Origin: Musa acuminata AAA Group
Lineage: Eukaryota > Streptophyta > Magnoliopsida > Zingiberales > Musaceae
NCBI RefSeq assembly: GCF_036884655.1
Contig: NC_088359.1
Span: 15,171,501 to 15,235,500, forward strand
Reading direction: 5' to 3'
DNA: 64,000 nucleotides
Below the pieces are notes generated by a model, which had not been told where the DNA came from, made no database searches, and saw only the letters and a list, made by a program, of their open reading frames with translations. Every line of letters starts with the position of its first letter. Within the stretch, counting starts at the first letter, position 1. Made by a program: the position numbers and the translations under genes. Below are positions 29,108 through 62,985 of the stretch, in pieces.

Positions 29108-29109
29108 CC

Positions 29110-31718: not shown

Positions 31719-33385
31719 TTGATGATCATGAGGCCTTACCAAGAGATAATTGCATATTTCTTCCTTCTCCCTCTTGATGATCATAAGGCCATGCTCATAA
31801 TTAAATGGTTGACGACATTAGGCAAACCTCCAGCAAATACTCGGCCATATCAATATCTATATCTCCAGAAGGATGAAATAGAAAAGATTAAAAAAGAAAT
31901 GCTCGAAACAGGAGTTATTCGGCCAAGTTGCAACCTCTATTCTTCACCGGTGCTACTTGTACGCAAGAAGGACGGAACATGGCGAATATGCGTTGATTAC
32001 CGAGCTCTCAATGGCATAACCATCAAGGACAAATACCTTATTCCAATAGCAGATGAATTGCTAGATGAAAGGGAGCACAAATCTTTACAAAGCTGCACCT
32101 TTGATCCGGGTATTATCAAATATGAGTGTGCGAAGAAGACATACCAAAAACCACCTTTTGAACACACAACAACCACTATGAATTTTTGCTTTCTTCAACA
32201 GAAGGTGGAATATCTGGGGCATATCATATCAGAGGAAGGTGTGACAGTGGACCCCTTCAAAATTGAAGCAATGCAAAACTGGCCTACCCCAAGGAACATA
32301 AAACTGCTACGTGGCTTTTTGAGTTTCACAGGCTACTACTGCAAGTTCGTGAAAAACTATGGAGAGATCAGTGCACCACTTACTTCGTTACTGAAAAAAG
32401 ATATCTTCCAATGGTCGGACAGAGCCTCCGTTGCCTTCGACAAACTTAAGGCAGCCATGACGACGACGCTGGTGCTAACACTACCATATTTCAACCGACC
32501 TTTCATTATTGAGGCTGACGCATCTAGAGTCGGAATTGGAGTCATTCTCATGCAAGATGGTCGACCACTCACATACACTAACAAGGCATTATCTCCCTCC
32601 CATCAAAATAAGTCAACATATGATAAGGAGATGCTCGCCATTGTGCGCGCAGCAACGAGGTGGAGACCCTACTTGATTGGCCGACGATTTCAAATTAAAA
32701 CCAACCATAAAAGCCTCAAGTACTTTTTGGAGCGAAAGATATCATCCCCTGAGCAGCAAAAATGGGTAACAAAACTTCTTGGATTTGATTATGATATAAC
32801 TTACAAAAAGGGGAAAGAGAATGTTCTTGCAGATGCGCTTTCGCAACTACCCGAGCAAGTTGAAGTTTCGATCGTTTCACTTCTGACCAGCGACTTTCTT
32901 AAGGATATTAAGATGGAATGGCAGGAAGATTCATAGACTAGTAAGATTATAAAAAAAAATTGAAGGAAGCACCAAGCCCCATGGCTCATTACAATTGGGA
33001 CTCAAAAGAATTACACTATAAGGGACGCATTTTGCTTATAATAAATTCTACTTGCATCTTCACGAGCAGATTTTGGACAAAGTTATTCCATATGCAGGGT
33101 ACTAAATTGAAAAGGAGTATGGCATATCACCCATAAACCGACGGCCAGACGAAAGTTGTAAATAGGTGCTTGGAGACAGCCCAAAGCTACCCACCAAATA
33201 TGACTACCCAAGGAGAACTTCAGACTCAGCCAAGTGCCATTATTGATCGACGGATCGTGACTCGACGATGACGATCCACTACTAAATTGCTAATACAGTG
33301 GGAAAACCTACTAAAAGAAGATGCTACTTGGAAGAACTATGATGATTTGAAAATCAAAATTCATGAATCGTCAGCCTCGAGGACA
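31719..33385 (+). pseudogene. pol: Gypsy C pol remnant
   Basis: The sequence between the end of the protease domain (KWLTTLG) and the RT entry (ANTRPYQY) is deleted; B and D keep several hundred bases there. The RT entry block, then the family-wide RT frameshift and palm deletion, [12 protein letters not shown], and RNase H ([24 protein letters not shown]) follow in one frame to a TAG at 32934. The integrase remnant to about 33385 has the family-wide core deletion plus further stops (for example in ACCCATAAACC). Confidence 0.87.
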
Positions 33386-33409
33386 AGGCTGATTTGAAGA
33401 GGGCGGGTT

Positions 33410-33845
33410 TGTTAGGACTCTAGCTAGGAGAGTCCTAATTGAGAGGGACATTCATGTAAAACCTACCTAAGCCGACCCCTATTAAGGAGGTGAAGTGGCC
33501 GGCTAGGGTTAGGAGGTTATTTCTTAGAGAAGAATAAGGAGTTGTAAAGGAATAGGAGTCTTGAGTAGGAGTCCTATTAGGAGTTGGTTAGAAGTATGAG
33601 TCTTGAGTAGGAGTCCTACTAGGAGTTGGTTAGAAGTAGGAGTCTTAAGTAAGAGTCATATTACGAGTTAGGGTTTAGAAGCCCTATAAATAGTCATGTA
33701 TTCTACCTCTTTTCATAAGCAATAGATGAATCTTTTCTGCAGCCTTTGAGCAGCAACTTGGAGGGAGGAACCCCTATAGAGTTCCAAGGAGTCCGATCCC
33801 CTAAAGAGATCAACCCCAAGTTTAGAATCTGCAAGTGTTCTAACA
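33410..33845 (+). repeat. 3' LTR of gypsy C
   Basis: 436 bp with TG...CA ends. It shares the CCGACCCC subtype segment with the 5' LTR and is followed by the ATCCA target repeat. Confidence 0.94.
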
Positions 33846-34111: not shown

Positions 34112-34305
34112 CAAATTGAGTCACCTTTTTTTTTGGTAAATAAAAGTAAATTGATTATGTGTAAAGATTCTACAAATAGCTTTATCTATACAAGTCATAG
34201 ACAGAGCCAATTAACTTATAGAGTGCGAATGCGATAGTTATGACTACACATGCTGTAGACTATAACTACCTGTGGGTACATTATTTGACATCATTCCCAA
34301 GATCT

Positions 34306-36895
34306 TTAGCTAATAACAAAATTAAATTTGATAAAAATATCTTTTTCTCTTCGGGTGAAGTGCTCGATTTTGAGATCATGCTCCATACAGGATCTTGAGT
34401 CTCTAATAATCTCTTTCAAGAGCTGAGCATTGTTTGTGTGTTGACATTCAAAGATTCTATTACATCTCTCCTTCCACATCCACCAAATAGCGCATCTGAA
34501 AGTAACATTTGCCAGTTGTGTAAGTGGCCCTTTTCTTGAGAAACATTGCATAAGGTCGCCTAGTTCTTGGTGCAAGTTTGGTTGCGGCAGTCTATTGAGT
34601 TCAAATCGCTGGAGAATCTCCTTCCATATCCATTTTGTATAATTACAAGCAAAATAAAGGTGGTCAACAGTTTCTTCTTGTTGCAAACAAATGGATCATC
34701 GGTTAACATGATAGATACCTCTTCTTTTCATATTGTCTATTGTAGGTAGTTTATTGAGAAGGGCCTGCCATGTACATAAGGAGTGTCTTTGTGATCCCGG
34801 TCGATCCCATGTCCAACTGCTTGGGACCCACTTGTTATTTCTTTGTCTAATTTGATTCCATACGGATGTGGCACTAAATTTGCCATTGTCATGAGGCCAA
34901 ATAAGTATATCTGAAGAGTTGTTCCTGATTGGAATAGCTATGATAGTCGGCCAAAGTGATAACATTTCGGGAGAAATAGGATTAGGGAGACACCAGGTAC
35001 CGTTAGCAATGAACTCGGAAACCTTCCAATCTTTGGGAGCCCCAAGATCTTTTCGTATTCTGTCGCCATATAATTGAAATATACTCTTCCCATTCACCCA
35101 AGGATCGTACCACATATTAGTACTAGTTCCAGAAGAGATTGCATAAGAAATGTGTTTGATTAGCCAATTCCTTGCCTTTAAAATTCCTTTCCAAACTGAA
35201 GAGTGGTATGTTCTTGTTGAAATTTCCCAGATTGATTCCTTTGAAAGATACCTAGCAGAAACCCATTGTGACCATAAGGAACATTTGTTTTGCAAAAGAT
35301 CCCACAATTGTTGTACCAGGCATGCTTGATTCCAATCTCTAGTATTTCTCAAATTTAGCCCCCCTTCATCTCTCGGTTTGCAAATGCTATCCCAATTTAC
35401 CATATGCATTGATTTATCATTTGTGCCATTCCAGAAGAAGTTCATTAATAACCGTTTAATAACTTGGAGAAGTCCAGCAGGCAGAAGAAATGCATTACAC
35501 CAATATATAGAGTAGGAGTGCAATACAGAACGGATGAGTTCGAGTCGTCCTGCTTTTGATAGAAGCCTATTTTTCCAAGAAGAAATTCTATTCTTTATTT
35601 TTTGTGGGATAGGCTGACAGTGGGTTTTGTGAATGCCTGTGGATATGAGCGGGAGACCCAAATAAGGAACTGGCAGGCTTCCCTCACTAACCCCCAAAGT
35701 TTGTGCAATAAAGACCTTATTCTCAACGTGAGGGCTCATATATACTTTACTTTTTGCATGATTTAACTGAAGTCCAGAAACCATACCAAAGTCATTCATA
35801 ATAGTAGCCAGGTTCTTTACTGAAGTTGGATCATTTTGGAGAAAGATAAGTAAATCATCTGCAAATGTTATATGTGATATATGAATAGAGCCAGCATTGG
35901 GTACCTTTATGCTGCCATTTAAGACTGCATGTTCCAACATACAGCTAAGTCCTTCCATCGCAATAGTAAAGAGATACAGAGAGAGTGGATCACCTTGTCG
36001 GATGCCATTCGTGCTCCCAAAAAAACCAATAGGTGAGCCATTAAAGAGTATCGAAAACTTTAGAGTTTCCAGGAAAGATTGAATCCAATTAACCCATTGC
36101 TGTGGGAAGTTCATATCGAGGAGCATCTTATAGATAAATTTCCTATTAACTGAATCAAAGGCTTTTCGTAAATCAGCTTTAAAACATATTTTTGTCCCTC
36201 TTGCTTTTGAATGCAAATCTTTGACCAAGTCATTAGCAAGCAAAATGTTATGATGTATACTTCTCCCTTTGATGAAAGCAGCTTGATTTGGGCTAATGAT
36301 CTTGTGTATTACCTTTTGCATTCTATTTGCTAATACTTTGGAGATGATCTTGTAAATAAAGTTGCATAATGATATGGGTCGATAGTTCTCTAGTGAATCA
36401 GCCCCTGCATTCTTCGGAATTAAAGAAATAAAGGTGCAATTCATCTCTCTAAGAATATGACCTGAAGAGAAAAAATGTTGGCAAGCCTTGATCACATCAT
36501 TTCCAATAATAGACCAAGCAGTTTGGTAAAATTCAGCTGGAAATCCATCTGGACCTGGGCTTTTGTGCTTTGGTGACTTAAAGACAACACATACAATTTC
36601 GTCGTCAGTAATTGGGGCATTGAGGATTGAAATAGCTTCCGAATCAAGTTTTCTAGTCGGCTCCACATGAATGTTATTAGTTTTCCCAGCTTGATTGAGT
36701 AAGGAATAAAAAAATTGCTCTGTGTGTGCTTTAACCTCTTCTAAATTCTCAATAAGATTATCATCTTTGTCTCTGCATTTGCTGATACGGTTAACAGCCC
36801 TTCGAGTAGCAATTGAAGCATAGAAAAATTTAGTATTGGAATCTCCTAGTGTAAGCCAATGCTGTCGAGACTTCTGCTTTACAAAACTTTCCTCC
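34306..36895 (-). pseudogene. LINE-2 ORF2, RT to C terminus
   Basis: It covers the ORF2 region from EESFVKQKSRQHW through RT (IPKNAGADSLENYRPISL, KADLRKAFD, FADD) to the C terminus. It is open from the 5' junction down to about 34693, where TGA replaces the first Cys of the zf-RVT zinc motif. The last 126 residues continue in frame after that stop. Relative to LINE-1, EN is absent here because it sits in the inverted segment. Confidence 0.92.
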
Positions 36896-37110
36896 AGGAT
36901 ATTGTGCTGCAACAATCTTATCGTGCTTCAACAAACCCTGCCAATCAAGACCACATGATTCAAGGTATTTTAAAGTTTAAAAATCTGCAAGCTGTAGATG
37001 AAGTGGATAAATATAGAAATAAAGTCATAAAAGGTAAGGATATTGTGCGGGAGGAAAATACAAAATCGAAGGATAAGAAAAAGGATGGTACAGTCCATCC
37101 AAAGTCGTAG
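36896..37110 (+). pseudogene. LINE-2 ORF1 C-terminal end (inverted segment)
   Basis: This is the last 70 or so residues of ORF1 (QQSYRASTNPANQDHM through the lysine-rich end), nearly identical to the end of the ORF1 at 44639-46165. The rest of ORF1 was never copied. Confidence 0.9.
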
Positions 37111-37148
37111 GATGAATACCTTACCACCTTTTCATTTCTTTATTACTG

Positions 37149-38143
37149 GTGAAGATAACATGTTGGAATGTTCGCGGACTTAATAAGCCGGAAAAATGTC
37201 GGGAGCTCAATAGAATAATCAAGTCTGCCGCATGTGATATTGTTATTCTAGTAGAAACGAAAATTAAACAATCGCGCGTTCAAGCTCAAAAGAATTTAAT
37301 ATGGCCGGACGCAGAACTGTTTACCAATGACTCAAATGAAACTTTTGGTAGAATATGGGTCTTATGGCATCCTAACTCTATTAATGCTTGGTTTATTTCT
37401 GCTACTGATCAATTCATTCAACTTAAGGTAGAGGACAAAAAGAATGGCTGTCAATTCAATTTCATTGGTATATATGCTTCAAATAGTCTGCAAGAAAGAA
37501 ATACTCTTTGGTCTGACCTGACTAATATTGCAAATGGCTGTCTTAATGTACCTTGGATTGTTCTTGGAGACTTTAATACTGTTCGGTATACAAATGAAAA
37601 AGAGGGGGGTAGACAACTTTCAGAAAGCCAGCTTCAAAGTTTTAATGATTACATTGACATTGCAGCTTTGTTTGATATGAAATCTGTGGGTAATTGGCTC
37701 TCCTGGAGTAATCAAGGTGCTGCTAACAGAAAAATAATGGCTCGACTTGATAGGTGTTTGATTAATCATGAATGGTTAACAGTTTACCCAGATTCACTTC
37801 TTGAGTATGGTGCTCCTTTGTTTTCTGACCATTCTTTAATGTATATACACGCAGACAAAGCGACACCAAGAGGCAAGAAACCGTTTAGATTCTTTAACAT
37901 GTGGAGTACTCATCCTCAATTTTCTTGATGTTATCAGATCTGCTTGGAATGTTAATGTGCATGGATCTCCCCCTTACATCTTATGTCAAAAGCTCAAAGC
38001 CTGTAAAGCAGCACTAAAGGAGTGGAATACAAATACCTTTGGCAATATTACCACCACAGTTCAATTTTGCAGGAAGGAACTAATGTCATTGCAACATGAG
38101 CTGCAACTTCAGCCAAATGATGAGAATATTATCTACAAAGAGA
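37149..38143 (+). pseudogene. LINE-2 ORF2 endonuclease part (inverted segment)
   Basis: The endonuclease starts KITCWNVRGLNKPEKC and keeps VETK, GDFN, LDRC and SDHS. The normal ATG (as at 46204) is GTG here. An extra T near 37922 shifts the frame after MWSTHPQF. The segment ends at IYKET at the target duplication. Confidence 0.9.
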
Positions 38144-38159
38144 CAAATTGAGTCACCTT

Positions 38160-39471
38160 AGTTCCTCCATCAAATGCTTCTCCGAGATAAAGTGCATGTG
38201 CCCCGAAGCTCCCTTCGTCTTTGGCACCATGCAAGATGAGTCCGCTTCGTCAGAATGAAGGACCCATGGAACAACATGATCATACTATTGCCTCTGCAAG
38301 AGTTCATGTCCTTGACCTCTGTCTAAGGAAAGCACTGTGCCTCTGCTCCACGTTCCAACTTCTATGCTGGCTCCCTTCATGTGGCTTGAGTACTTCGCCA
38401 AGTTACACCCATGTTGCTCCGCTCTTCGTTTTCACATTGAGTCGATGTTGGCCCTCGCGTCCACCATTCCACGGGTCAGCCCTCCATTGAGTCCGATCTC
38501 CACATCGACTCCAACTGTGCCTTCATTTGTGTTGCTTTGGGTCGCTCCCCCACTTGATCTCGCAATGCATTCTCTCAAGCGAGATCATACGACGACTCCT
38601 CGCCACTTGCTTAGTCCATCGAGCTTTGTGGAGTTGTTGTTTGTTGAGGTACTCCTCCTCAACATATGAGGTCCGTCTCACATGATTCTCCCTCTAGAGA
38701 GCCGGGACTTATCTCTCCTGGATAACTGTCCCATTGGAGCAACATCTCTCTTCGTTTCAGAGACCACCATCCCCTTGGACTACTCCGATCTGTTGAACAA
38801 ACTGTGCATTGATCTGCCTCCTGCAAATGCACTTGCTAGATTGCGACTCTACGTCAATACAGCCCCCACTGCACCACTCAAGGCCTAGCGACATGCTGAA
38901 CTCATTGCACACTTCAGCCTCCTACGTACGTATCCTTCATATGCCGAAGAGAAAGTTTCAATGCTCCATGGCGCCGAGTTTCAGTCGCCTTGGGATGGCC
39001 ACGAACATTCCATCGTCTGCATACAAGCCCATGCATGAGTACCAAATTCTTCGAGTTAGCAATTCCCCTCACCTCTGTGAGCTTTGCATAACTCTTTTGA
39101 TCGTTGAGCAACTCATTCCACCTTACATGGTCTCATCCTTTACCAAGCGCCTCGCTTGGCTTGAGCACCATCAAGTATAGTTGTCAACGTTGAGCCGTAG
39201 CTCAAACTCAGCCATCCCAACCTTTGTTCGCTCCGCATTCTTCCAAGGTTTCCCGTTCTCATGGTGCCTCTTGCGCGAAGGGTTGGACATTCCTCTGAAT
39301 TCCAATGTCAGATGCCAGCTTCTCCGAGCAACTCCTTTTCCCTACATCTCCATGCCTGTTTTCCCCCAAACGGTCGCGCGTGTGCTGACTGCCCTCAACG
39401 CAGCCCCGATAGGTCCCCCACGTTTGCATGGTAAGTGTTTCTATGAGTGCTTGTCCGGCTCTGATACCATC
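38160..39471 (-). other. Interior of element G, 5' portion with PBS
   Basis: The minus-strand PBS TGGTATCAGAGC (39458-39469, read as GCTCTGATACCA on plus) is two bases from G's 5' LTR. The rest is about 1.3 kb without recognisable gag. ORFs on plus (38337-38669, 38809-39180 and 39181-39567) are antisense to the element and carry no known motif, so I do not call them genes. Confidence 0.75.
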
Positions 39472-39918
39472 TATCACGTACTTAGCTGGTTTTACCTAAG
39501 TCGTGCAACACCCTTGCGTGTCCGTCCGCAAAGGTCAGCCTCCCCGAAGCCTCCCATTGTCCCTTAAGACCAACAAAAGAGAGAACGGGCTAGAGAGAAC
39601 GCCTCAATTGGGATCCACAAGCAAACATCCCTGAAAATACACTTCATAGATAATGCAAATTACAAACAGACTTTACAAGCTCTGAACAGTGGCACAACAA
39701 AGGGTAAAATGGTCCATTATAAATCAAAAATCTCTCGCACGTGTCCACATGACACAACCTTTATTTACAAGCCTAAAGAGGCCACCAACCCAACTAAAAT
39801 GGGACTATTAAGCCTTTGGCCGCCCCTCTACAGGCTGTACAAGGCATGAACATGCCAAAAGACACGGACATATATAAGCATTACATCAAATACCTTGTTT
39901 AAAAGTTTGTCCATGACA
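39472..39918 (-). repeat. 5' LTR of element G (unfilled LINE site)
   Basis: 447 bp and a close match to the split LTR at 10537-15827. It has AATGCAAATTACAAACAG without interruption at about 39654-39671, exactly where LINE-1 sits in the other LTR. The minus strand begins TGTCATGGACAAAC. Confidence 0.9.
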
Positions 39919-41105: not shown

Positions 41106-41282
41106 TGTTGGGAAATCTAGGGCGACATCATATGCACAGCGAAAGAACATAAAAGAAAAAACCCAAATTTCCCAATATGTGTTTGTCGTCATGCGAAAAT
41201 TGGTGTGTGAAATCCGTAAAATTAAAAATTGTATGTCAGAAAGATAGTTGTGTTACCTAGGGAGATCATATATCCCTGAATC

Positions 41283-41719
41283 TGAACAGTATTAAAGTCT
41301 CCAAGTACAATCCAAGGTACATTGAGACAGCCATTTGCAATATTAGTCAGGTCAGACCAAAGAGTATTTCTTTCTTGCATACTATTTGAAGCATATATAC
41401 CAATGAAATTGAATTGACAGCCATTCTTTTTGTCCTCTACCTTAAGTTGAATGAATTGATCAGTAGCAGAAATAAACCAAGCATTAATAGAGTTAGGATG
41501 CCATAAGACCCATATTCTACCAAAAGTTTCATTTGAGTCATTGGTAAACAGTTCTGCGTCCGGCCATATTAAATTCTTTTGAGCTTGAACGCGCGATTGT
41601 TTAATTTTCGTTTCTACTAGAATAACAATATCACATGCGGCAGACTTGATTATTCTATTGAGCTCCCGACATTTTTCCGGCTTATTAAGTCCGCGAACAT
41701 TCCAACATGTTATCTTCAT
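41283..41719 (-). pseudogene. LINE-3 inverted ORF2 N-terminal fragment
   Basis: It encodes the first 145 or so residues of the endonuclease (MKITCWNVRG, VETK, GDFNTV) and is then cut at the target duplication. The open frame runs a further 20 residues into flanking X LTR sequence, ending at 41222. Confidence 0.92.
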
Positions 41720-41757
41720 CAGTAATAAAGAAATGAAAAGGTGGTAAGGTATTCATC

Positions 41758-43284
41758 CTACGACTTTGGATGGACTGTACCATCCTTTTTCTTATCCTTC
41801 GGTTTTGTATTTTCCTCCCGCACAATATCCTTACCTTTTATGACTTTATTTCTATATTTATCCACTTCATCTACAGCTTGCAGATTTTTAAACTTTAAAA
41901 TACCTTGAATCATGTGGTCTTGATTGGCAGGGTTTGTTGAAGCACGATAAGATTGTTGCAGCACAATTTCCTGGATAGTACTTGTTGGAGTAGCTTGGCT
42001 AGAGAGGTTTGTTGGGGCATGAGTTTGTTGAGACAGAATATCCTTGTTGGCGATGTTTGTTGTGGCTTGAGTTTGTTGAGGAAGAATATCCTTGCTGGCG
42101 AGATTTGTTTGGGCCTGAGTTTGTTGAGTTATTGTGGACGGATCCAATGATATTGGAAGAGATGAAGTTCCTGACTTATGTTTCTCCTGTCCACTAGTAC
42201 CAAGGGAAACCTCTGTTGTGGAAGGCTCCGACATTGTAGGAAGAGATATAATTTTGGATTTGTCCTTCTGTCCGCGGTGCTGTCCTTGTGAGTCGGAATG
42301 CTCAATAGTCTTCGCCACCATCGGTGCTACTGCCATTAGAGAAGACTCGCTTTGTTGCGGAGGCGCTTGACGTGGTCGATAGACCTTTGTGATTTGTTTT
42401 GGAGTTTGCTGACAAGCTCCATTTGCATGACCAAAAGATAAGCAATGCTGACATCGTTGTGGCTTCCAAGAATATGAGACATGTACCTTCCGAGTGTTCC
42501 CATCAAGATCACGATAGAAAACCTCATTTGGAAGATCTTCGTCAGAAGAAACCAGTACACATGCTCGTGCAAATGCTAATCTCGTCTGAGCAGCTGTTGC
42601 TTTGTCGATGTAGAGTGGCTGTCCCAGAGTGCTGCATAACTTTGCAATAAAACGTCGACTCCAAAGATGTAGAGGAAGACCTTGAAAGGATACCCATAAT
42701 GGAATAGACTGTAGGCTATCTAACTCCAAACGGACATCAGGAGACCAGCGTCGTAGAATCATTGGATGGCCGCGAATAGTCCAGAATCCTTCGAGGACTC
42801 GTTGTAAATCTTCTTCAGAGTATAGCTTGCAAACAAAGAATCCGTTCTCCAGCATATGAAGATCAAATGACGATATTCCCCATCGAGTTTTGATAAATGA
42901 GGATAGTGGGAAATAAGATGTTTTGAGACCTACCACATAGCCAACAATCGCCATAGACCATGTCTCAATAAGCTCTGCTGAATCAGCAGTCTCGTATACA
43001 ACAATCTTCTTATCAGCCTGAACTTCTGGAGTAAAGAATTCCAAGCTTAGATCCGGACTTCCAACCGGAGCCTTGAAGAGGCTAGTCCAAGGCCTAGGGT
43101 TACTGGAAATGAGGGCAGGCTGCCGCAATCTAGAGCGCGATCTACTTCGATGCTGTTTCGTCGAAGGAGTTTCTCTCTGGAGAGGATATGGAGGAGGAGC
43201 CAATTGAGGGGTAACGGTAGGGAGTCTTACCATCGTATCAACTCTCCCGCCACCGTCGCCAGCCCTAGGGGCCGTCGCTGCCAT
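41758..43284 (-). CDS. LINE ORF1 protein, intact (inverted copy)
   Basis: An uninterrupted 508-residue ORF1. The layout is an N-terminal Pro/Arg-rich part with an SRSRSRLR stretch (about 47-54), a DUF4283-like domain (about 100-240), a CCHC knuckle (CQHCLSFGHANGAC, starting at residue 278), a Gln/Thr-rich linker with TQAQTNLASKDI-type repeats, and a lysine-rich C terminus. It differs from the plus copy at about five residues and keeps the Gly of the knuckle that the plus copy has lost. ORF1 binds LINE RNA. It has its own 5' UTR (43285-43789), so expression is conceivable, but its ORF2 is cut short. Confidence 0.9.
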   Translation of the reverse strand: MAATAPRAGDGGGRVDTMVRLPTVTPQLAPPPYPLQRETPSTKQHRSRSRSRLRQPALISSNPRPWTSLFKAPVGSPDLSLEFFTPEVQADKKIVVYETADSAELIETWSMAIVGYVVGLKTSYFPLSSFIKTRWGISSFDLHMLENGFFVCKLYSEEDLQRVLEGFWTIRGHPMILRRWSPDVRLELDSLQSIPLWVSFQGLPLHLWSRRFIAKLCSTLGQPLYIDKATAAQTRLAFARACVLVSSDEDLPNEVFYRDLDGNTRKVHVSYSWKPQRCQHCLSFGHANGACQQTPKQITKVYRPRQAPPQQSESSLMAVAPMVAKTIEHSDSQGQHRGQKDKSKIISLPTMSEPSTTEVSLGTSGQEKHKSGTSSLPISLDPSTITQQTQAQTNLASKDILPQQTQATTNIANKDILSQQTHAPTNLSSQATPTSTIQEIVLQQSYRASTNPANQDHMIQGILKFKNLQAVDEVDKYRNKVIKGKDIVREENTKPKDKKKDGTVHPKS

Positions 43285-43789
43285 GTTTGATCCCTCTTCT
43301 GGTCGCGGCTATAGAATCATCTCCATAGGGAAAAACCACCGTCGCAGTATATCAGATCGCCGCTACAGTACCGTCGCCCTAGGGAGATCTGGTCGCCGCT
43401 ATAGTATCGTCACCCTTCGGGAGAAGCCGACGCTGCAGGAGATCCGATCACCACTACAGTAAGGGAGATCAGATTGTTGCTAGCCAACGCTGCAGGAGTC
43501 AGATCGCTCTAGGGAGATCTCGTCGCCGCTACAGTGTCGTCGCCGCTACAGTATTGTCGCTGCTACAGTGTCGTCGCCGCCGCTACAGTACGTCGCCCTT
43601 GGGAAACAGCCGACGCTGCAGGAAATCAGATCGCCGCTACAGTGTCGTCGCCTGTCGCCCGTGGGAGAAAGCCGACGCTGTAGGAGTCAGATCGCCCTAG
43701 GGAGATCTGGCCGCCGCTACAGTGGTCGCCCTAGATCTGTTCGCCGCTACAGTGTTGTCGCCGCTACAGTGGTCGCCCTAGATCTGGTC
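43285..43789 (-). promoter_or_regulatory. LINE 5' UTR, probable internal promoter (inverted)
   Basis: GC-rich sequence upstream of the inverted ORF1, built of repeats such as GTCGCCGCTACAGTGTCGTC and CCCTAGGGAGATC. LINE 5' UTRs usually hold the promoter. This one is longer than the plus copy's (about 505 against about 290 bp) because it has more repeat units. The ORF at 43568-43798 is repeat sequence. Confidence 0.7.
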
Positions 43790-44335
43790 TCCATATAATT
43801 GAAATATACTCTTCCCATTCACCCAAGGATCGTACCACATATTAGTACTAGTTCCAGAAGAGATTGCATAAGAAATGTGTTTGATTAGCCAATTCCTTGC
43901 CTTTAAAATTCCTTTCCAAGCTGAATAGTGGTATGTTCTTGTTGAAATTTCCCAGATTGATTCCTTTGAAAGATACCTAGCAGAAACCCATTGTGACCAT
44001 AAGGAACATTTGTTTTGCAAAAGATCCCACAATTGTTGTACTAGGCATGCTTGATTCCAATCTCTAGTATTTCTCAAATTTAGCCCCCCTTCATCTTTCG
44101 GTTTACAAATGCTATCCCAATTTACCATATGCATTGCCTTATCATTTGTGTCATTCCAGAAGAAGTTCATTAATAACCGTTCAATATCTTGGAGAAGTCC
44201 AGCAGGCAGAAGAAATGCATTACACCAATATATAGAGTAGGAGTGCAATACAGAACGGATGAGTTCGAGTCGTCCTGCTTTTGATAGAAGCCTATTTTTC
44301 CAAGAAGAAATTCTATTCTTTATTTTTTGTAGAAC
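43790..44335 (-). pseudogene. LINE-3 inverted mid-ORF2 fragment
   Basis: It encodes ORF2 from about LQKIKNRISSWKNRLLSK to NGKSIFQLYGD, wedged between the two 5' UTRs. Its right end is followed by AGAACGGATGAGTTCGA (44331-44347), a copy of 44252-44268 inside the same fragment. Confidence 0.9.
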
Positions 44336-44345
44336 GGATGAGTTC

Positions 44346-44638
44346 GACGTACTGTAGCGGCGGCGACGATACTGTAGCAGCGACAATACTGTAGCGGCGA
44401 CGAGATCTCCCTAGGGCGATCTGACTCCTGCAGCGTTGGCTAGCAACAATCTGATCTCCCTTACTGTAGTGGTCATCGGATCTCCTGCAGCGTCGGCTTC
44501 TCCCGAAGGGTGACGATACTATAGCGGCGACCAGATCTCCCTAGGGCGACGGTACTGTAGCGGCAATCTGATATACTGCGACGGTGGTTTTTCCCTATGG
44601 AGATGATTCTATAGCCGCGACCAGAAGAGGGATCAAAC
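44346..44638 (+). promoter_or_regulatory. LINE 5' UTR, probable internal promoter (plus copy)
   Basis: GC-rich, with ACTGTAGCGGCG and CTCCCTAGGGCGA repeats. It is the reverse complement of part of 43285-43789 and leads directly into the ORF1 ATG at 44639. Confidence 0.7.
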
Positions 44639-46165
44639 ATGGCAGCGACGGCCCCTAGGGCTGGCGACGGTGGCGGGAGAGTTGATACGATGGTAAGACT
44701 CCCTACCGTTACCCCTCAATTGGCTCCTCCTCCATATCCTCTCCAGAGAGAAACTCCTTCAACGAAACAGCATCGAAGTAGATCGCGCTCTAGATCGCGG
44801 CAGCCTGCCCTCATTTCCAGTAACCCTAGGCCTTGGACTAGCCTCTTCAAGGCTCCGGTTGGAAGTCCGGATCTAAGCTTGGAATTCTTTACTCCAGAAG
44901 TTCAGGCTGATAAGAAGATTGCTGTATACGAGACTGCTGATTCAGCAGAGCTTATTGAGACATGGTCTATGGCGATTGTTGGCTATGTGGTAGGTCTCAA
45001 AACATCTTATTTCCCACTATCCTCATTTATCAAAACTCGATGGGGAATATCGTCATTTGATCTTCATATGCTGGAGAACGGATTCTTTGTTTGCAAGCTA
45101 TACTCTGAAGAAGATTTACAACGAGTCCTCGAAGGATTCTGGACTATTCGCGGCCATCCAATGATTCTACGACGCTGGTCTCCTGATGTCCGTTTGGAGT
45201 TAGATAGCCTACAGTCTATTCCATTATGGGTATCCTTTCAAGGTCTTCCTCTACATCTTTGGAGTCGATGTTTTATTGCAAAGTTATGCAGCACTCTGGG
45301 ACAGCCACTCTACATCGACAAAGCAACAGCTGCTCAGACGAGATTAGCATTTGCACGAGCATGTGTACTGGTTTCTTCTGACGAAGATCTTCCAAATGAG
45401 GTTTTCTATCGTGATCTTGACGGGAACACTCGGAAGGTACATGTCTCATATTCTTGGAAGCCACAACGATGTCAGCATTGCTTATCTTTTAGTCATGCAA
45501 ATGGAGCTTGTCAGCAAACTCCAAAACAAATCACAAAGGTCTATCGACCACGTCAAGCGCCTCCGCAACAAAGCGAGTCTTCTCTAATGGCAGTAGCACC
45601 GATGGTGGCGAAGACTATTGAGCATTCCGACTCACAAGGACAGCACCGCGGACAGAAGGACAAATCCAAAATTATATCTCTTCCTACAATGTCGGAGCCT
45701 TCCACAACAGAGGTTTCCCTTGGTACTAGTGGACAGGAGAAACATAAGTCAGGAACTTCATCTCTTCCAATATCATTGGATCCGTCCACAATAACTCAAC
45801 AAACTCAGGCCCAAACAAATCTCGCCAGCAAGGATATTCTTCCTCAACAAACTCAAGCCACAACAAACATCACCAACAAGGATATTCTGTCTCAACAAAC
45901 TCATGCCCCAACAAACCTCTCTAGCCAAGCTACTCCAACAAGTACTATCCAGGAAATTGTGCTGCAACAATCTTATCGTGCTTCAACAAACCCTGCCAAT
46001 CAAGACCACATGATTCAAGGTATTTTAAAGTTTAAAAATCTGCAAGCTGTAGATGAAGTGGATAAATATAGAAATAAAGTCATAAAAGGTAAGGATATTG
46101 TGCGGGAGGAAAATACAAAACCGAAGGATAAGAAAAAGGATGGTACAGTCCATCCAAAGTCGTAG
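44639..46165 (+). CDS. LINE ORF1 protein, intact (plus copy)
   Basis: A 508-residue ORF1 with an SRSRSRSR segment (47-54), a DUF4283-like domain (about 100-240, with ETWSMAIVGYVVGLKTSYF), the knuckle at C278, C281, H286, C291, and a basic C terminus (KGKDIVREENTKPKDKKK). The knuckle reads CLSFSHANGAC, with Ser where the inverted copy has the usual Gly, so RNA binding may be weakened. ORF2 begins 38 bp after its stop. It is the standard 5' ORF of plant L1 elements; the start ATG is the first after the GC-rich leader. Confidence 0.92.
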   Translation: MAATAPRAGDGGGRVDTMVRLPTVTPQLAPPPYPLQRETPSTKQHRSRSRSRSRQPALISSNPRPWTSLFKAPVGSPDLSLEFFTPEVQADKKIAVYETADSAELIETWSMAIVGYVVGLKTSYFPLSSFIKTRWGISSFDLHMLENGFFVCKLYSEEDLQRVLEGFWTIRGHPMILRRWSPDVRLELDSLQSIPLWVSFQGLPLHLWSRCFIAKLCSTLGQPLYIDKATAAQTRLAFARACVLVSSDEDLPNEVFYRDLDGNTRKVHVSYSWKPQRCQHCLSFSHANGACQQTPKQITKVYRPRQAPPQQSESSLMAVAPMVAKTIEHSDSQGQHRGQKDKSKIISLPTMSEPSTTEVSLGTSGQEKHKSGTSSLPISLDPSTITQQTQAQTNLASKDILPQQTQATTNITNKDILSQQTHAPTNLSSQATPTSTIQEIVLQQSYRASTNPANQDHMIQGILKFKNLQAVDEVDKYRNKVIKGKDIVREENTKPKDKKKDGTVHPKS

Positions 46166-46203
46166 GATGAATACCTTACCACCTTTTCATTTCTTTATTA
46201 CTG

Positions 46204-49200
46204 ATGAAGATAACATGTTGGAATGTTCGCGGACTTAATAAGCCGGAAAAATGTCGGGAGCTCAATAGAATAATCAAGTCTGCCGCATGTGATATTGTTA
46301 TTCTAGTAGAAACGAAAATCAAACAATCGCGCGTTCAAGCTCAAAAGAATTTAATATGGCCGGACGCAGAACTGTTTACCAATGACTCAAATGAAACTTT
46401 TGGTAGAATATGGGTCTTATGGCATCCTAACTCTATTAATGCTTGGTTTATTTCTGCTACTGATCAATTCATTCAACTTAAAGTAGAGGACAAAAAGAAT
46501 GGCTGTCAATTCAATTTCATTGGTATATATGCTTCAAATAGTATGCAAGAAAGAAATACTCTTTGGTCTGACCTGACTAATATTGCAAATGGCTGTCTCA
46601 ATGTACCTTGGATTGTTCTTGGAGACTTTAATACTGTTCGGTATACAAATGAAAAAGAGGGGGGTAGACAACTTTCAGAAAGCCAGCTTCAAAGTTTTAA
46701 TGATTACATTGACACTGCAGCTTTGTTTGATATGAAATCTATGGGTAATTGGCTCTCCTGGAGTAATCAAGGTGCTGCTAACAGAAAAATAATGGCTCGA
46801 CTTGATAGGTGTTTGATTAATCATGAATGGTTAACAGTTTACCCAGATTCACTTCTTGAGTATGGTGCTCCTTTGTTTTCTGACCATTCTTTAATGTATA
46901 TACACGCAGTCAAAGCGACACCAAGAGGCAAGAAACCGTTTAGATTCTTTAACATGTGGAGTACTCATCCTCAATTTCTTTATGTTATCAGATCTGCTTG
47001 GAATGTTAATGTGCATGGATCTCCCCCTTACATCTTATGTCAAAAGCTCAAAGCCTGTAAAGCAGCACTAAAGGAGTGGAATACAAATACCTTTGGCAAT
47101 ATTACCACCACAGTTCAATTTTGCAGGAAGGAACTAATGTCATTGCAACATGAGCTGCAACTTCAGCCAAATGATGAGAATATTATCTACAAAGAGACAG
47201 AAGCTAGAAATAACTTCATGCAAGCCTTAAAACAGGAGGAAAGTTTTGTAAAGCAGAAGTCTCGACAGCATTGGCTTACACTAGGAGATTCCAATACTAA
47301 ATTTTTCTATGCTTCAATTGCTACTCGAAGGGCTGTTAACCGTATCAGCAAATGCAGAGACAAAGATGATAATCTTATTGAGAATTTAGAAGAGGTTAAA
47401 GCACACACAGAGCAATTTTTTTATTCCTTACTCAATCAAGCTGGGAAAACTAATAACATTCATGTGGAGCCGACTAGAAAACTTGATTCGGAAGCTATTT
47501 CAATCCTCAATGCCCCAATTACTGACGACGAAATTGTATGTGTTGTCTTTAAGTCACCAAAGCACAAAAGCCCAGGTCCAGATGGATTTCCAGCTGAATT
47601 TTACCAAACTGCTTGGTCTATTATTGGAAATGATGTGATAAAGGCTTGCCAACATTTTTTCTCTTCAGGTCATATTCTTAGAGAGATGAATTGCACCTTT
47701 ATTTCTTTAATTCCGAAGAATGCAGGGGCTGATTCACTAGAGAACTATCGACCCATATCATTATGCAACTTTATTTACAAGATCATCTCCAAAGTATTAG
47801 CAAATAGAATGCAAAAGGTAATACACAAGATCATTAGCCCAAATCAAGCTGCTTTCATCAAAGGGAGAAGTATACATCATAACATTTTGCTTGCTAATGA
47901 CTTGGTCAAAGATTTGCATTCAAAAGCAAGAGGGACAAAAATATGTTTTAAAGCTGATTTACGGAAAGCCTTTGATTCAGTTAATAGGAAATTTATCTAT
48001 AAGATGCTCCTCGATATGAACTTCCCACAGCAATGGGTTAATTCTCTTTAATGGCTCACCTATTGGTTTTTTTGGGAGCACGAATGGCATCCGACAAGGT
48101 GATCCACTCTCTCCGTATCTCTTTACTATTGCGATGGAAGGACTTAGCTGTATGTTGGAACATGCAGTCTTAAATGGCAGCATAAAGGTACCCAATGCTG
48201 GCTCTATTCATATATCACATATAACATTTGCAGATGATTTACTTATCTTTCTCCAAAATGATCCAACTTCAGTAAAGAACCTGGCTACTATTATGAATGA
48301 CTTTGGTATGGTTTCTGGACTTCAGTTAAATCATGCGAAAAGTAAAGTATATATGAGCCCTCACGTTGAGAATAAGGTCTTTATTGCACAAACTTTGGGG
48401 GTTAGTGAGGGAAGCCTGCCAGTTCCTTATTTGGGTCTCCCGCTCATATCCACAGGCATTCACAAAACCCACTGTCAGCCTATCCTACAAAAAATAAAGA
48501 ATAGAATTTCTTCTTGGAAAAATAGGCTTCTATCAAAAGCAGGACGACTCGAACTCATCCGTTCTGTATTGCACTCCTACTCTATATATTGGTGTAATGC
48601 ATTTCTTCTGCCTGCTGGACTTCTCCAAGATATTGAACGGTTATTAATGAACTTCTTCTAGAATGGCACAAATGATAAGGCAATGCATATGGTAAATTGG
48701 GATAGCATTTGCAAACCGAAAGATGAAGGGGGGCTAAATTTGAGAAATACTAGAGATTGGAATCAAGCATGCCTGGTACAACAATTGTGGGATCTTTTGC
48801 AAAACAAATGTTCCTTATGGTCACAATGGGTTTCTGCTAGGTATCTTTCAAAGGAATCAATCTGGGAAATTTCAACAAGAACATACCACTCTTTAGCTTG
48901 GAAAGGAATTTTAAAGGCAAGGAATTGGCTAATCAAACACATTTCTTATGCAATCTCTTCTGGAACTAGTACTAATATGTGGTACGATCCATGGGTGAAT
49001 GGGAAGAGTATATTTCAATTATATGGCGATAGAATACGAAAAGATCTTGGGGCTCCCAAAGATTGGAAGGTTTCCGAGTTCATTGCTAACGGTACCTGGT
49101 GTCTCCCTAATCCTATTTCTCCCGAAATTTTATCACTTTGGCCGACTATCATAGCTATTCCAATCAGGAACAACTCTTCAGATATACTTATTTGGCCTCA

Positions 49201-49786
49201 TGACAATGGCAAATTTAGTGCCACATCCGTATGGAATCAAATTAGACAAAGAAATAACAAGTGGGTCCCAAGCAGTTGGACATGGGATCGACCGGGATCA
49301 CAAAGACACTCCTTATGTACATGGCAGGCCCTTCTCAATAAACTACCTACAATAGACAATATGAAAAGAAGAGGTATCTATCATGTTAACCGATGCTCCC
49401 TTTGTTTGCAACAAGAAGAAACTGTTGACCACCTTTATTTTGCTTGTAATTATACAAAATGGATATGGAAGGAGATTCTCCAGCGATTTGAACTCAATAG
49501 ACTGCCGCAACCAAACTTGCACCAAGAACTAGGCGACCTTATGCAATGTTTCTCAAGAAAAGGGCCACTTACACAACTGGCAAAGGTTACTTTCAGATGC
49601 GCTATTTGGTGGATGTGGAAGGAGAGATATAATAGAATCTTTGAATGTCAACACACAAACAATGCTCAGCTCTTGAAAGAGATTATTAGAGACTCAAGAT
49701 CTTGTATGGAGCATGATCTCAAAATCGAGCACTTCACCTGAAGAGAAAAAGATATTTTTATCAAATTTAATTTTGCTATTAGCTAA
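46204..49786 (+). pseudogene. LINE-3 ORF2, full length but broken
   Basis: Starts MKITCWNVRG, with all endonuclease motifs (VETK, GDFN, LDRC, SDHS). The first frame ends at 48051 because about 60 bp are missing where intact copies read WIQSCLETPKFSI (sequence jumps from TGGGTTAATT to CTCTTTAATGG), inside the RT domain. RT continues in another frame with FADD (about 48232). Two more nonsense changes follow: TAG at 48659-48661 for Trp in NFFWNG and TGA at 49739-49741 for Arg. The terminal stop shared with intact copies is at 49784-49786. No functional RT is expected. Confidence 0.93.
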
Positions 49787-49966
49787 AGATCTTGGGAGTG
49801 ATGTCAAATAATGTACCCACAGGTAGTTATAGTCTACAGCATGTGTAGTCATAACTATCGCATTCGCACTCTATGAGTTAATTGGCTTTGTCTATGACTT
49901 GTATAGATAAAGCTATTTGTAGAATCTTTACACATAATCAATTTACTTTTACTTACCAAAAAAAAA

Positions 49967-50901
49967 GAATACGAAAAGATCTTGGGGCTCCCAAAGATTG
50001 GAAGGTTTCCGAGTTCATTGCTAACGGTACCTGGTGTCTCCCTAATCCTATTTCTCCCGAAATGTTATCACTTTGGCCGACTATCATAGCTATTCCAATC
50101 AGGAACAACTCTTCAGATATACTTATTTGGCCTCATGACAATGGCAAATTTAGTGCCACATCCGTATGGAATCAAATTAGACAAAGAAATAACAAGTGGG
50201 TCCCAAGCAGTTGGACATGGGATCGACCGGGATCACAAAGACACTCCTTATGTACATGGCAGGCCCTTCTCAATAAACTACCTTCAATAGACAATATGAA
50301 AAGAAGAGGTATCTATCATGTTAACCGATGCTCCCTTTGTTTGCAACAAGAAGAAACTGTTGACCACCTTTATTTTGCTTGTAATTATACAAAATGGATA
50401 TGGAAGGAGATTCTCCAGCGATTTGAACTCAATAGACTGCCGCAACCAAACTTGCACCAAGAACTAGGCGACCTTATGCAATGTTTCTCAAGAAAAGGGC
50501 CACTTACACAACTGGCAAAGGTTACTTTCAGATGCGCTATTTGGTGGATGTGGAAGGAGAGATGTAATAGAATCTTTGAATGTCAACACACAAACAATGC
50601 TCAGCTCTTGAAAGAGATTATTAGAGACTCAAGATCCTGTATGGAGCATGATCTCAAAACCGAGCACTTCACCCGAAGAGAAAAAGATATTTTTATCAAA
50701 TTTAATTTTGCTATTAGCTAAAGATCTTGGGAATGATGTCAAATAATGTACCCACAGGTAGTTATAGTCTACAGCATGTGTAGTCATAACTATCGCATTC
50801 GCACTCTATGAGTTAATTGGCTTTGTCTATGACTTGTATAGATAAAGCTATTTGTAGAATCTTTACACATAATCAATTTACTTTTACTTACCAAAAAAAA
50901 A
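49967..50901 (+). pseudogene. Second LINE 3' fragment in the poly(A) of LINE-3
   Basis: It begins GAATACGAAAAGATC right after the first copy's A-run and repeats ORF2 from about DRIRKDLGAPKDW to the stop at 50721, then the 3' UTR and poly(A). Unlike the first copy it keeps Arg at the 49739 position and Cys in KERCNR. The frame is open from 49882 through the first copy's 3' UTR, which has no biological meaning. Confidence 0.9.
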
Positions 50902-51635
50902 ATATATCCCTGAATCCCTATATATCTATATGAGTGGATGGAGGAGGTCAAGCGACCTCGTCTCAAGCGGTGATCCATACAACAGGGCTGCAATGATGCT
51001 CCTGAAATCTCCAGGCCTGCAATTTAAGGAGGAGAAGGGGAGAGGATAATAGGAGGTGGCTACTAGGAAGCCCCAACCTATGGACATTTAGTTCCCTCCT
51101 ATTTATAGAGGCCCCCAGTTAACCCTAATGGATCTTGCCCTATTGGGTATTAGATCTCCATCAAATTACCCAAGCCTCTTAGATTAGTGGGTCTCTACTT
51201 AATAATCTCTTATTATCTCTTATTGGATCTAATTCATGGGATCCAATAATTCAAGGGCTTTTTGGATATCCAATAAGATAGGGTTTTCAACGGATATCTC
51301 ATATCTGAACCTCTACTCGTCACAATACCTATCATATGTGTATGACCCTCTAGGTCCAATATCGAGTTGGTCGTGAGTCATACCTATCAGAACTCCATCT
51401 AGGTTAGTGAATTATTATCTCCATAATAATTCACTCGACTCATCGACTACGGACATACTATGCCACCACGCTATAGTCTGGAGTTGATACAGGAGAATCC
51501 AAACCTTTGGACCTATCTATCCTTAGTTACCGTGTACCTATAGCCTCTCATCTATCTAATATCCCAAAGACCTAATAAGATCCAAAATTCTTATCGTAAA
51601 AGAAATGAGAGAAATGATAAGGCTCTGATATCAAA

Positions 51636-53533: not shown

Positions 53534-53971
53534 TGTTAGGACTCTAGCTTGGAGAGTCCTAATTGAGAGGGACATTCATGTAAAAATGTTAGGACTCTAG
53601 CTAGGAGAGTCCTAATTGAGAGGGACATTCTGTTAGGACTCTAGCTAGGAGAGTCCTAATTGTGAGGGGCATTCATGTAGGAGGTTTTTTCTTAGAGAAG
53701 AATTAGGAGTTGTAAGGGAATAGGAGTCTTGAGTAGGAGTCCTATTAGGAGTTAGTTAGAAGTAAGAGTCTTAAGTAAGAGTCCTATTAGGAGTTAGGGT
53801 TTAGAAGCCCTATAAATAGCCATGTATTCCTTCTCTTTTCTTAAGCAATAGATGAATCTTTTCTGCAGCCTTTGAGCAGCAACTTGGAGGGAGGAACCCC
53901 TATAGAGTTCCAAGGAGGCCAATCCCCTAAAGAGATCAACCCCAAGTTTAGAATCTGCGAGGGTTCTAACA
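53534..53971 (+). repeat. 5' LTR of gypsy D with PBS
   Basis: 438 bp of the A/B subtype with three TTAGGACTCT hairpins, TG...CA ends and a TATAAATA promoter box near 53810. The PBS TGGTATCAGAGC is at 53974-53985. Confidence 0.94.
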
Positions 53972-53985
53972 CCTGGTATCAGAGC

Positions 53986-55283
53986 AGCGTTCTTGGCGTC
54001 TCGCTGCCCTTCCACAGCCATCCATCAACCCTCTACAATCATCCAAAGCAATTCCCACAATTGCTTAAAAGATCATCACCGAATTCCGCCATCATCTCCA
54101 CCACCGCGGATCATCCTTCGATCTCCCCGTGAATTGCAACAGGTTCTGGTTTCCTACCTTACTACTGCTGCAATTTAGTTATCCTTATTCGAAAAAAAAA
54201 AAAAAATCGTTCTTATATTGCTGCATAAACTTTTCGTCACAAAGTTTTCATCTCTACGACGAAAGATACATTGCAGAATTCCAGCCGCATAGCACCATCT
54301 GTTTGATCTTGCTACTATGCTTTTTCTATCCAAATTTGTACGAAATTTTTATAACATATTTGACACTTCCTAACAGTGGATTTCCCTTTGGTTTCATCAA
54401 AAAATTCTCAATATAAACTACTGATCTTTTATGTCCAATCTGCTGCACTTGAATTGCAGAATTCAAGCCGCATAGCACCATCTGTTTGATCTTGATACTG
54501 TGCTTTTTCTATCCAAATTTCTACGAAATTTTTATGACATCTTTGACACTTCCTAACAGTATATTTCCCTTTGGTTTCATCGAAAAATTCTCAATATAAA
54601 CTACTGATCTTTTATGTCCAATCTGCTGCACTTGAAAATCTATGTTGCAGAAAATTTCAGCTGCATATCATTGCCTTAACCCATCTATTTGTAATCTTTT
54701 TTGAATTAAATTTCTTATAGACTTCATATATCATCTTGGCTTCCATCTAAGATTGATCTATTAAGAAATTTATCTCTAAAAACGATTTTATGTTGCTGCA
54801 AATTTTCATCATAACCCGCTGAAATTTTTCGACGATAATTCTGCAATTGCAACTTGCACCAATTTCTTTGCTGTTATACTGCCGAAATTTTCTTGATTAA
54901 ATTAGATATCCTTGCTGTTATATAAACTGTGATTTTGCTATCAATTCCCTCCTCAATTCTCTTAAGTTTTTGGTGGAAATTACGTCGAGAAACCGTTGTT
55001 TCTTCAACGACAATTCTACTCTTACGAGACAGCACATACTTGCTGCAACTTCCACGGATTTCTGTCAAACCTTTGCTACCATCTACCACAGATCCAAAAC
55101 TTTCATCCACAGCCCTAAAACTCTACCAAACCACACCCTCAAACTGCACCCAAAACTGCCACAAAACAAGCCTAAACCGCAGCCTACATCCACCAATCCA
55201 CCATCACTTCTCTCAACCTATACATGCCTTTAACCCACCAGCAAAAGAGAGATCTTAACATCATTGATTTGGGGCCATATACT
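53986..55283 (+). other. Untranslated leader of gypsy D
   Basis: About 1.3 kb with an A-run near 54195 and the tandem duplication at about 54268-54645. No gene. Confidence 0.75.
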
Positions 55284-56156
55284 ATGGCATCTAAGGAGGC
55301 AATCAATGCTAAATTCGAAGCCTTGGAGGCGCGAATTGAGGATAAGATTCGGACGCTCTTTACCAAACTCAAATTGGGCCGACCACTAAGTCCGAAGAAA
55401 TCATATCAAGGAGAGAGATTTGCCCAATCACACCAAGCCCGAAGAGATGACTTCCAAGGGAGGGTAGGCTCTATGACAAACCCCAACTATCCATGCATGA
55501 GAGTGGACTTCCCTAGATGGGAAGAAGGAGACCCGATTGGTTGGATTTCGCACGCGGAGCGATATTTTCGGTACCACAAAACCGCGGATGTATCTATGGT
55601 GAAAATTGCAGCTATACATCTTGAAGGGGATGCTATACAGTGGTTTGACTAGTTTGAACATACTTATAGAGTCCTTTCATGGCGACAATTCAAAGAAGGA
55701 CTGCTGATTCGCTTCAGACCAACCGATTACGAGAATATTGACGAACAACTAGCAAATATCCAACAAACCTCCACCATTCAGGAGTACCAAACCAGGTTTG
55801 AAAGGTTATCTAATCAAACTCATGATTGGTCTCAAAAACAGCTATTGTGGACCTTCATTGAGGGCTTGAAGCCGGAGATCCGAGGAGAAGTTAAAGCGCG
55901 ACAACCGTATACGCTTATGGCAGCCATCTCTTTCGCACGACATCAAGAGGAGCAATTGAACCATGAAGCTCGGAGGACTAGAGTCTCTCCTCAACCAGTA
56001 ATATTGAAGCCCTTAGCCCCCCCTACTGTCGACCAAGTCCCTACACTAAAGAGGTTAACAAGAGAAGAGCTTCGGGAGTGATATGCGAAGGGGTGATGTT
56101 GGCATTGTGACGAGCCGTGGAGCCGTGAGCATCGCTGTAGTAAAGGGGGACTTCTT
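55284..56156 (+). pseudogene. gag: Gypsy D gag, broken
   Basis: It starts MASKEAI (55284) and contains PRWEEGDPIGWISHAERYF. TAG at 55650-55652 replaces Trp in WFDWFEH. The frame recovers for LKPEIRGEVKARQPYT, then two TGA codons (56080-56082 and about 56094) fall just before and inside the knuckle region. The knuckle residues [11 protein letters not shown] are still readable. Confidence 0.9.
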
Positions 56157-58030
56157 ATGATTGAACCGATAGAAGAAGAGGTCATTGAACATCCAAAAGA
56201 GAGCCTTGAACATGAAGAAGAAGATGCAGAAGAAGAGCCACAATCGACCGAAGTTACGGTACATACACTAGCTAGCTACTCAAACCCGCAAACGATGAAA
56301 ATTGGAGGCCTTCTCAAACAACAACCAATCACTGTTCTCATCGACACGGGCAGTACTACTAACTTCCTAAATAGTAAGCTTGCTGTTCGGATATCATTAC
56401 CTATCGAGAATCGCTGCAGGTTTGATGTTAAGGTCACTGACGGACGGATTTTGAATTGTGATCATAGGCGCTTGCAGGAGAAACTATTGCTGCAGGACCA
56501 AGAGATAATTGCAGATTTCTTCCTTCTCCCTCTTAACAATCATGAGGCCATGCTCAGAATTAAATGGTTGACAACATTAGGTGATATTTCTTGGAATTTT
56601 ATGAAACTAATTATGAAATTTTACAGTAAGGAGAAACAGGTGACATTGCACAGGAAACGTGGGGGCGACATAACAACGATTTGCACACAACAAATGGAGA
56701 ATGTTTTGCATAAAGCATGCGGCGACTTTTTGGTACAACTTGAGCAGCAAACTAAGGGAGAGCCAACAAAATTTGAAGATCCAAATCCACTTCCTTTGCT
56801 TGCTGAATTTTCAAATATATTTGACGAACCGCGCAACCTACCTCTTACCTATCGGCATGATCATTGTATAATGATTCTTCCAGGCAAATCTTCAGCAAAT
56901 GCTCAGCCATATCAGTATCCACATCTCCAGAAGGATGAAATAGAAAGGATTATAAAAGAGATGCTCGAAACAGGAGTTATTCGGCCAAGTTGCAACCTCT
57001 ACTCTTCGCCGGTGCTACTTGTATGCAAGAAGGACGGAACAAGGCGAATATGTGTTGATTACCGAGCTCTCAATGGCATAATCATCAAGGACAAATACTT
57101 TATTCCAATAGTAGATGAATTGCTAGATGAAAGGGAGCACAAATCTTTACAAAGCTGGACCTTTGATCCAGGTATCATCAAATACGAGCATGCGAAGAAG
57201 ACATACGGAAAACCACCTTTTGAACACACAACAACCACGAATTTTTGCTTTCTTCAACAAAAGGTGGAATATCTTGGGCATATCATATCAGAGGAAGGTG
57301 TGGCAGTGGACTCCTTCAAAATTGGAGCAATGCAAAACTGGTCGACCTCGAGAAACATAAAATTGCTACATGGCTTTCTGGGTTTAACAGGCTACTACCG
57401 TAAGTTCGTGAAAAACTATGAAAAGATCAGTGCACCACTTACTTCCTTACTAGAAAAAGATGTCTTCCAATGGTTGGACAGAGCCTCCGCTGCCTTCGAC
57501 AAACTTAAGGCAGCCATGACGACGACGCTAGTGCTAACACTACCAGATTTCAACCGACCCTTCATTATTGAGGCCGACACATCTGGAGTCAGAATTGGAG
57601 TCATTCTCATGCAAGATGGTCGACCACTCGCATACACTAGCAAGGCATTATCTCCCTCCGATTAAAATATGTCAACATATGATAAGGAGATGCTCGCCAT
57701 TATGCGCGCAGCAACGAGGTGGAGATTGTACTTGATCAGGCATTACTTTCAAATCAAGATCGACCATAAAAGCCTAAAATATCTCTTGGAGCAGAAGATA
57801 TCTTCCCCCGAGCAGCAAAAAAGGGTAACAAAACTTTTTGGATTTGATTTTGAAATAACTTACAAAAAGGGGAAAAAGAATGTTCTTGCAGATGCGCTTT
57901 CGCAGCTACCCGAGCAAGTTGAAGTTTCGACCGTTTCACTTCCGACCAGCGACTTCCTTGAGGATATTAAGATGGAATGGCAGGAAGATTCAGATACTAG
58001 TAAGATTATAAAAAAATTGGAGGAAGTACC
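56157..58030 (+). pseudogene. pol: Gypsy D protease, defective RT, RNase H
   Basis: An open frame of 502 residues (56157-57665) holds the acidic linker, protease DTGS (about 56343), the RT entry block ([11 protein letters not shown]), the same RT frameshift and palm deletion as [14 protein letters not shown] and the start of RNase H (IIEADTSG). A TAA at 57663 sits at the same Gln codon as in B. RNase H continues at 57669 ([20 protein letters not shown] with Asp kept, NVLADALS) until copia H cuts the element in KKLEEVP. Confidence 0.9.
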
Positions 58031-62963: not shown

Positions 62964-62985
62964 CAAATTCATATCCCACTTTCAA

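Follow-up and report, generated by a model that had tools for sequence, protein, structure and literature searches.

A compound LINE locus with a 2.3-kb inverted repeat in banana: twin priming, nesting and inversion as a candidate origin

In twin-primed (5'-inverted) L1 insertions, an inverted 5' piece and a sense 3' piece with a poly(A) tail are found within one target-site duplication, TSD (PMC12016303; PMC12350158; PMC2912911). Pieces from more than one RNA may also share one TSD, as described for LINE-1 chimeras, whose antisense partners are ascribed to twin priming (PMC13174262). Template jumping by R2-type reverse transcriptases, in which a cDNA end continues at the 3' end of a second template, has been shown biochemically (as cited in PMC2912911). 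In maize, MuDR is silenced by Mu killer, in which part of an autonomous element is duplicated in inverted orientation; a hairpin RNA has been proposed to arise there by read-through from a flanking gene (PMC3440606). Here, we describe a locus from Musa acuminata AAA Group, located in a stretch of 64,000 nucleotides (contig NC_088359.1, positions 15,171,501 to 15,235,500; hereafter, the window), which combines the twin-priming hallmark of an inverted 5'-side piece and a sense 3' piece inside one TSD with additional pieces of the same LINE family.

Structure of the compound locus

The compound is bounded on both sides by the same 15-bp TSD, the longest string common to the searched flanks. Its parts are given below in window positions; positions preceded by "LINE" refer to the matching place in the sense copy.

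41268..41282, no strand: left TSD ATATATCCCTGAATC, from flank string comparison
41284..43786, minus strand: inverted 5' piece, from LINE 46639 to the UTR (ORF2 start with EN, ORF1, 5' UTR)
41758-43284, minus strand: ORF1 of the inverted 5' piece, 508 codons; 5' UTR from 43285 on
43787..43792, minus strand: join J2, 6-nt overlap between a UTR unit and the ORF2 piece, with a putative base change
43787..44332 (start 43787/8), minus strand: inverted ORF2 piece (B-anti), LINE 49030 to 48485, 546 nt
44333..44344, minus strand: filler, 12 nt
44345..49965, plus strand: sense LINE (A-sense) with shortened UTR
44639-46165, plus strand: ORF1 of A-sense
46204-49741, plus strand: broken ORF2 of A-sense
49958-49966, plus strand: A9 tail of A-sense
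49966..50901, plus strand: second 3' piece (B-sense), LINE 49031 to poly(A)
50902..50916, no strand: right TSD ATATATCCCTGAATC, from flank string comparison

A preliminary description of this DNA had claimed a 15-bp duplication around the whole compound, the order inverted UTR-ORF1-EN, inverted ORF2 piece, sense LINE and second tail, nearly identical arms, and an ORF1 differing at about five residues, all of which is borne out by our analysis. The arms (41284-43595 vs. 46639-44345) align over 2312 columns with 98.66% identity, 14 mismatches and one 17-nt gap, and chance is not an issue for kilobase arms at 98.7%. The 749-nt loop between them consists of ~192 nt of extra 5' UTR, the inverted ORF2 piece (546 nt) and the 12-nt filler, while B-sense matches A-sense from LINE 49031 to poly(A) with 99.25% identity over 936 nt. 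Each arm carries an ORF1 of 508 codons, and the two ORF1s differ at exactly five positions (53, 95, 211, 285 and 412), at two of which the protein P0001 sides with the sense copy and at three with the left arm; the change from G to S at residue 285, which lies inside what we take to be a zinc-knuckle pattern, is one of the sense copy's own ORF1 changes.

Two terms of the same description, a "full-length" LINE and "two full 5' ends," are not supported at the locus. The sense copy is 5'-shortened, its UTR measuring 294 nt vs. about 503 nt in the left arm: it starts 192 nt inside the left arm's UTR and is also without one 17-nt UTR unit. The left arm's UTR breaks off in tandem repeats at GGAGACCAGATCT (an inner UTR unit reads GGCGACCAGATCT at this place), and, since this break lies in a tandem-repeat array at the 6-nt overlap with the ORF2 piece, the left arm may be incomplete too, ending inside the array. 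Degenerate units of 15-17 nt around CGCCGCTACAGT make up both 5' UTRs (43285-43786 and 44345-44638), with a difference of one 17-nt unit between the arms; this array is possibly a monomer-type promoter. ORF2 of the sense copy is broken by a 38-nt deletion after 48043 and by stops at 48660 and 49739. All three lesions are private to A-sense: the deleted bases are present in the family copies C and D (see below; B does not cover the place), and the stops are absent from B, C and D. At join J2, GGCGAC is expected from both the UTR unit and the ORF2 piece and GGAGAC is found. The filler together with the overlaps AG and CGA (44331-44347) represents an antisense repeat of LINE 48549-48565.

The features of a plant L1-like LINE (ORF1 and ORF2 domains, poly(A) tail, TSD) are present: ORF1 carries DUF4283, and the pieces of the broken ORF2 carry the domains endonuclease, RVT_1 and zf-RVT. 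A search with ORF1 yielded six proteins (two from ENA, two from Ensete ventricosum, one from Colocasia and one from Musa banksii), the first ENA match being at 98%, with 57 member sequences. Among the best 120 of 138 matches to ORF2, the top one, from Ensete ventricosum, spans the whole query at 79%. These protein relatives point to a plant that is probably of the banana family.

Related copies and mutation loads

Altogether, the 64-kb window holds five family copies (A-E) with 87-99% identity, three of them outside the compound locus:

34126-38145 (34112-38159 overall): C, cleanly twin-primed, with a gap of 35 nt between its two pieces and a TSD of 16 bp
60227-62964 (60211-63089 overall), minus strand: D, a 5'-truncated copy joined to an antisense tRNA-like segment
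10734-15569 (10722-15575 overall): E, more distantly related (about 87%), with a TSD of 10 bp

The tRNA-like segment of D (62985-63057 by ARAGORN) and ~13 nt of filler are all enclosed with the LINE in one TSD, the copies of which differ by two T; a reading of D as an insertion without TSD was rejected, the TSD being present beyond the tRNA-like segment. The tRNA nature of this segment rests on the ARAGORN call and on a presumed likeness to tRNA-Leu, and in Rfam no tRNA matched at E 0.1, the only match being a weak one to a tmRNA T-arm that fell short of the gathering score. The resemblance of D to antisense tRNA/LINE-1 chimeras (PMC13174262) indicates that the family does join other RNA-like pieces during insertion. 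Copy E has an intact ORF2 frame, open over 1213 codons and carrying LINE domains, and a paralogous empty site of E is found in the same window at 39657-39666 (within 39471-39918). The window also includes repeated blocks (17800-33845 and 53534-58030) that contain multiple Ty3-type gag and protease frames, as well as a 4.1-kb direct duplication (1-4102 and 6046-10177, 97.7% identity).

Private changes per polarised site amount to 16/4721 in A-sense, 1/1468 in the left arm, 6/1474 in B, 24/3945 in C and 14/2693 in D, these counts leaving the UTR and ORF1 before 45172 unpolarised at the DNA level, as well as site 45421; two further private ORF1 changes of the left arm, outside the counted blocks, were polarised through P0001. 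The use of private load as a clock to separate the models was abandoned, there being no significant difference (homogeneity p 0.18 for A-sense, left arm and B; p 0.06 for all five). Across six aligned blocks, no variant tells RNA A from RNA B and no site is common to only part of the same-subfamily copies, which argues that A, B, C and D derive from nearly one source. Both arms agree against P0001 at nine residues, and at residue 439 (base 45955, codon read by eye) C carries the residue of P0001 and both arms differ, a change that is possibly particular to the two A arms. Gene conversion, expected to make the arms more alike than the A and B pieces, was considered and is not supported (14/2295 vs. 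14/1474 mismatches, p 0.25, with gap columns omitted from the counts and the LINE 49027 mismatch beside J2 omitted from the A/B count). Overall, the mutation data neither require nor exclude one event.

Possible order of events at the locus

The abutment of the two B pieces in LINE coordinates, which the preliminary description does not mention, must be explained by any model. B-anti ends at LINE 49030 (49026 without any mismatch) and B-sense starts at 49031, leaving a gap of 0-4 nt, and C and D are continuous and unbroken across LINE 49030|49031; the chance of two independent breakpoints falling within 5 nt is ~0.002. When the 749-nt loop is flipped in silico, the B pieces to the left and right of A share one orientation, and the left arm's extra UTR runs into A's sense UTR. 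What lies outside A after the flip is a twin-primed LINE (inverted arm, filler, and LINE 48485 to poly(A)), and this continuity of a host element around a guest is seen only once the loop is flipped. The parts, the outer TSD and the abutment are read directly off the locus, as is the simpler order that results from a flip of the loop. The preliminary description was fair in stating that the present order does not follow from ordinary twin priming of a single LINE RNA; template jumping, which was offered there instead, is possible and is not required, since the loop flip leaves a twin-primed LINE with a nested LINE.

The explanation that we prefer, with about even confidence, consists of two LINE insertions and one inversion between the arms, the order of events, the nesting without TSD and the inversion all being reconstructed. 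B would have been inserted by twin priming, giving a TSD, the inverted piece (LINE 46639 towards the UTR), the 12-nt filler, LINE 48485 to poly(A), and the second TSD. A nearly complete LINE of the same family, A, would then have landed in the same orientation between LINE 49030 and 49031 of B, without a TSD. Finally, the inverted 5' piece of B and the 5' region of A, which form the 2.3-kb inverted repeat, would have recombined and thereby flipped the 749-nt loop. The abutment and the order seen after the flip speak for this model. All the proposed steps belong to known kinds. Long arms in inverted orientation lend themselves to inversion. In humans, 45 inversions with inverted repeats at their borders have been reported (PMC12350158). 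Twin priming is common in the LINE family, and the twin-primed copy C with its 16-bp TSD in the same window supports the nesting model; nesting is also not far-fetched because five copies of 87-99% identity lie within 64 kb.

Several observations count on the other side. No inner TSD was found around A, the longest string common to its two flanks being 4 nt and out of place, and the outer TSDs of the four family insertions (15, 16, 16/18 and 10 bp) show that the family makes TSDs; nesting by ordinary target-primed insertion is, therefore, not proven. The twin-priming gap of B would be ~1.85 kb, from the outer inverted arm (LINE 46639) to LINE 48485, vs. 35 nt in C. Furthermore, A should be younger than B, yet their private loads are alike (16/4721 vs. 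6/1474, p 0.63).

One compound insertion with template jumps, a more precise form of the idea in the preliminary description, is possible, although we favor it less than nesting followed by inversion. A first cDNA would prime on the poly(A) of RNA B, stop at LINE 49031, jump to RNA A at its poly(A) and copy A as far as its UTR. A second cDNA, primed by the other target end on A at 46639, would copy into the UTR, use the GGCGAC overlap to switch to RNA B at 49030, immediately in front of the first cDNA, and continue to 48485; after an 80-nt slip back for 17 nt, the two cDNAs would join at CGA. Such an event accounts for a single TSD, leaving no inner TSD to be explained, and the joins show overlaps (GGCGAC with one base changed, AG, CGA and A). 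The abutment would here reflect priming on B close in front of the first cDNA, comparable to human twin-primed L1s, in which the two cDNAs lie within 20 bp in 132/287 cases (PMC12016303). That A-sense, the left arm and B are homogeneous in private load (p 0.18) is likewise in its favor, and family copy D, a LINE/tRNA-like chimera in one TSD, favors jumps to some degree. However, each of the two cDNAs would have to switch templates and the same 2.3 kb of A would have to be copied two times, the variants that would separate RNA A from RNA B were not found in the aligned blocks, and all that it explains is also obtainable by nesting and a flip. That a single insertion from at least two LINE RNAs, with both cDNAs switching templates, made the 2.3-kb LINE hairpin in one step is, in our estimate, rather unlikely.

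A source locus in which A was already nested in B could have yielded a single long RNA that was then inserted by twin priming, but this appears quite improbable. The inverted cDNA (A from 46639 to the UTR, B from 49030 to 48485) and the other cDNA would each be continuous, with a 2.3-kb overlap; the order of the joins J2 and J4 is as this RNA would predict, and neither inversion nor jump would be required. Nevertheless, transcription must pass through A's internal poly(A), a TSD-less nest is demanded elsewhere, and the 2.3-kb overlap stands against a median of 12 bp in humans (PMC12016303); the 17-nt unit also differs between the arms, though repeat slippage could produce that. The joins cannot decide among these three explanations because they are identical in all of them, and the relative weights that we assign are a matter of judgement, not of computation. 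Inverted repeats are a known class of assembly artefact, but a misjoined or hairpin read is hardly credible as the source of the inverted arm: the left arm begins at a TSD matching the far end, and the arms differ by 14 substitutions and the 17-nt unit, 6 of these 14 mismatches being private to one arm by C or E polarisation and 2 more by P0001.

Potential for silencing and comparison with known systems

The two 5' UTRs are arranged head-to-head and point away from each other, each into its own ORF1. The preliminary description counted them as divergent promoters that could help to feed siRNA silencing; each UTR would yield sense RNA, so that divergence alone makes no dsRNA, which requires read-through across both arms. 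The comparison with Mu killer, thus, rests on read-through. The window contains 27 stop-to-stop frames of at least 150 codons, of which eight, each lying outside the locus, were scanned with Pfam (six with LTR-retrotransposon domains, one with LINE domains and one with nothing); no host gene able to drive read-through was seen among these eight. By inference, it is very unlikely that the compound locus silences its LINE relatives. It does provide a natural long LINE inverted repeat with near-identical copies nearby and, thereby, a test case for hairpin-triggered silencing; if one-step template jumping were true, it would also represent a route for a LINE family to make its own dsRNA silencer.

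The broader meaning of the locus depends on its origin. Under nesting and inversion, a mirror-image compound LINE need not be one event, and a loop flip would be a quick first check; under template jumping, it would be a plant LINE/LINE chimera with switches on both cDNAs. Among the literature matches listed (titles and abstracts) there is no plant LINE of like structure, which is not proof of none in print. Where a twin-primed L1 has one sense piece, one poly(A) tail and one inverted piece, the banana locus has two of each. In contrast to the LINE-1 chimeras described (PMC13174262), the possible partner here is another LINE RNA, and nesting gives the same structure. The poly(A) of A directly upstream of B-sense fits a cDNA transferred to a second template at its 3' end, as for R2 (cited in PMC2912911), this being one of several readings here. 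With Mu killer (PMC3440606), the locus shares the inverted duplication of element sequence; transcription across the arms and silencing are putative at the banana locus.
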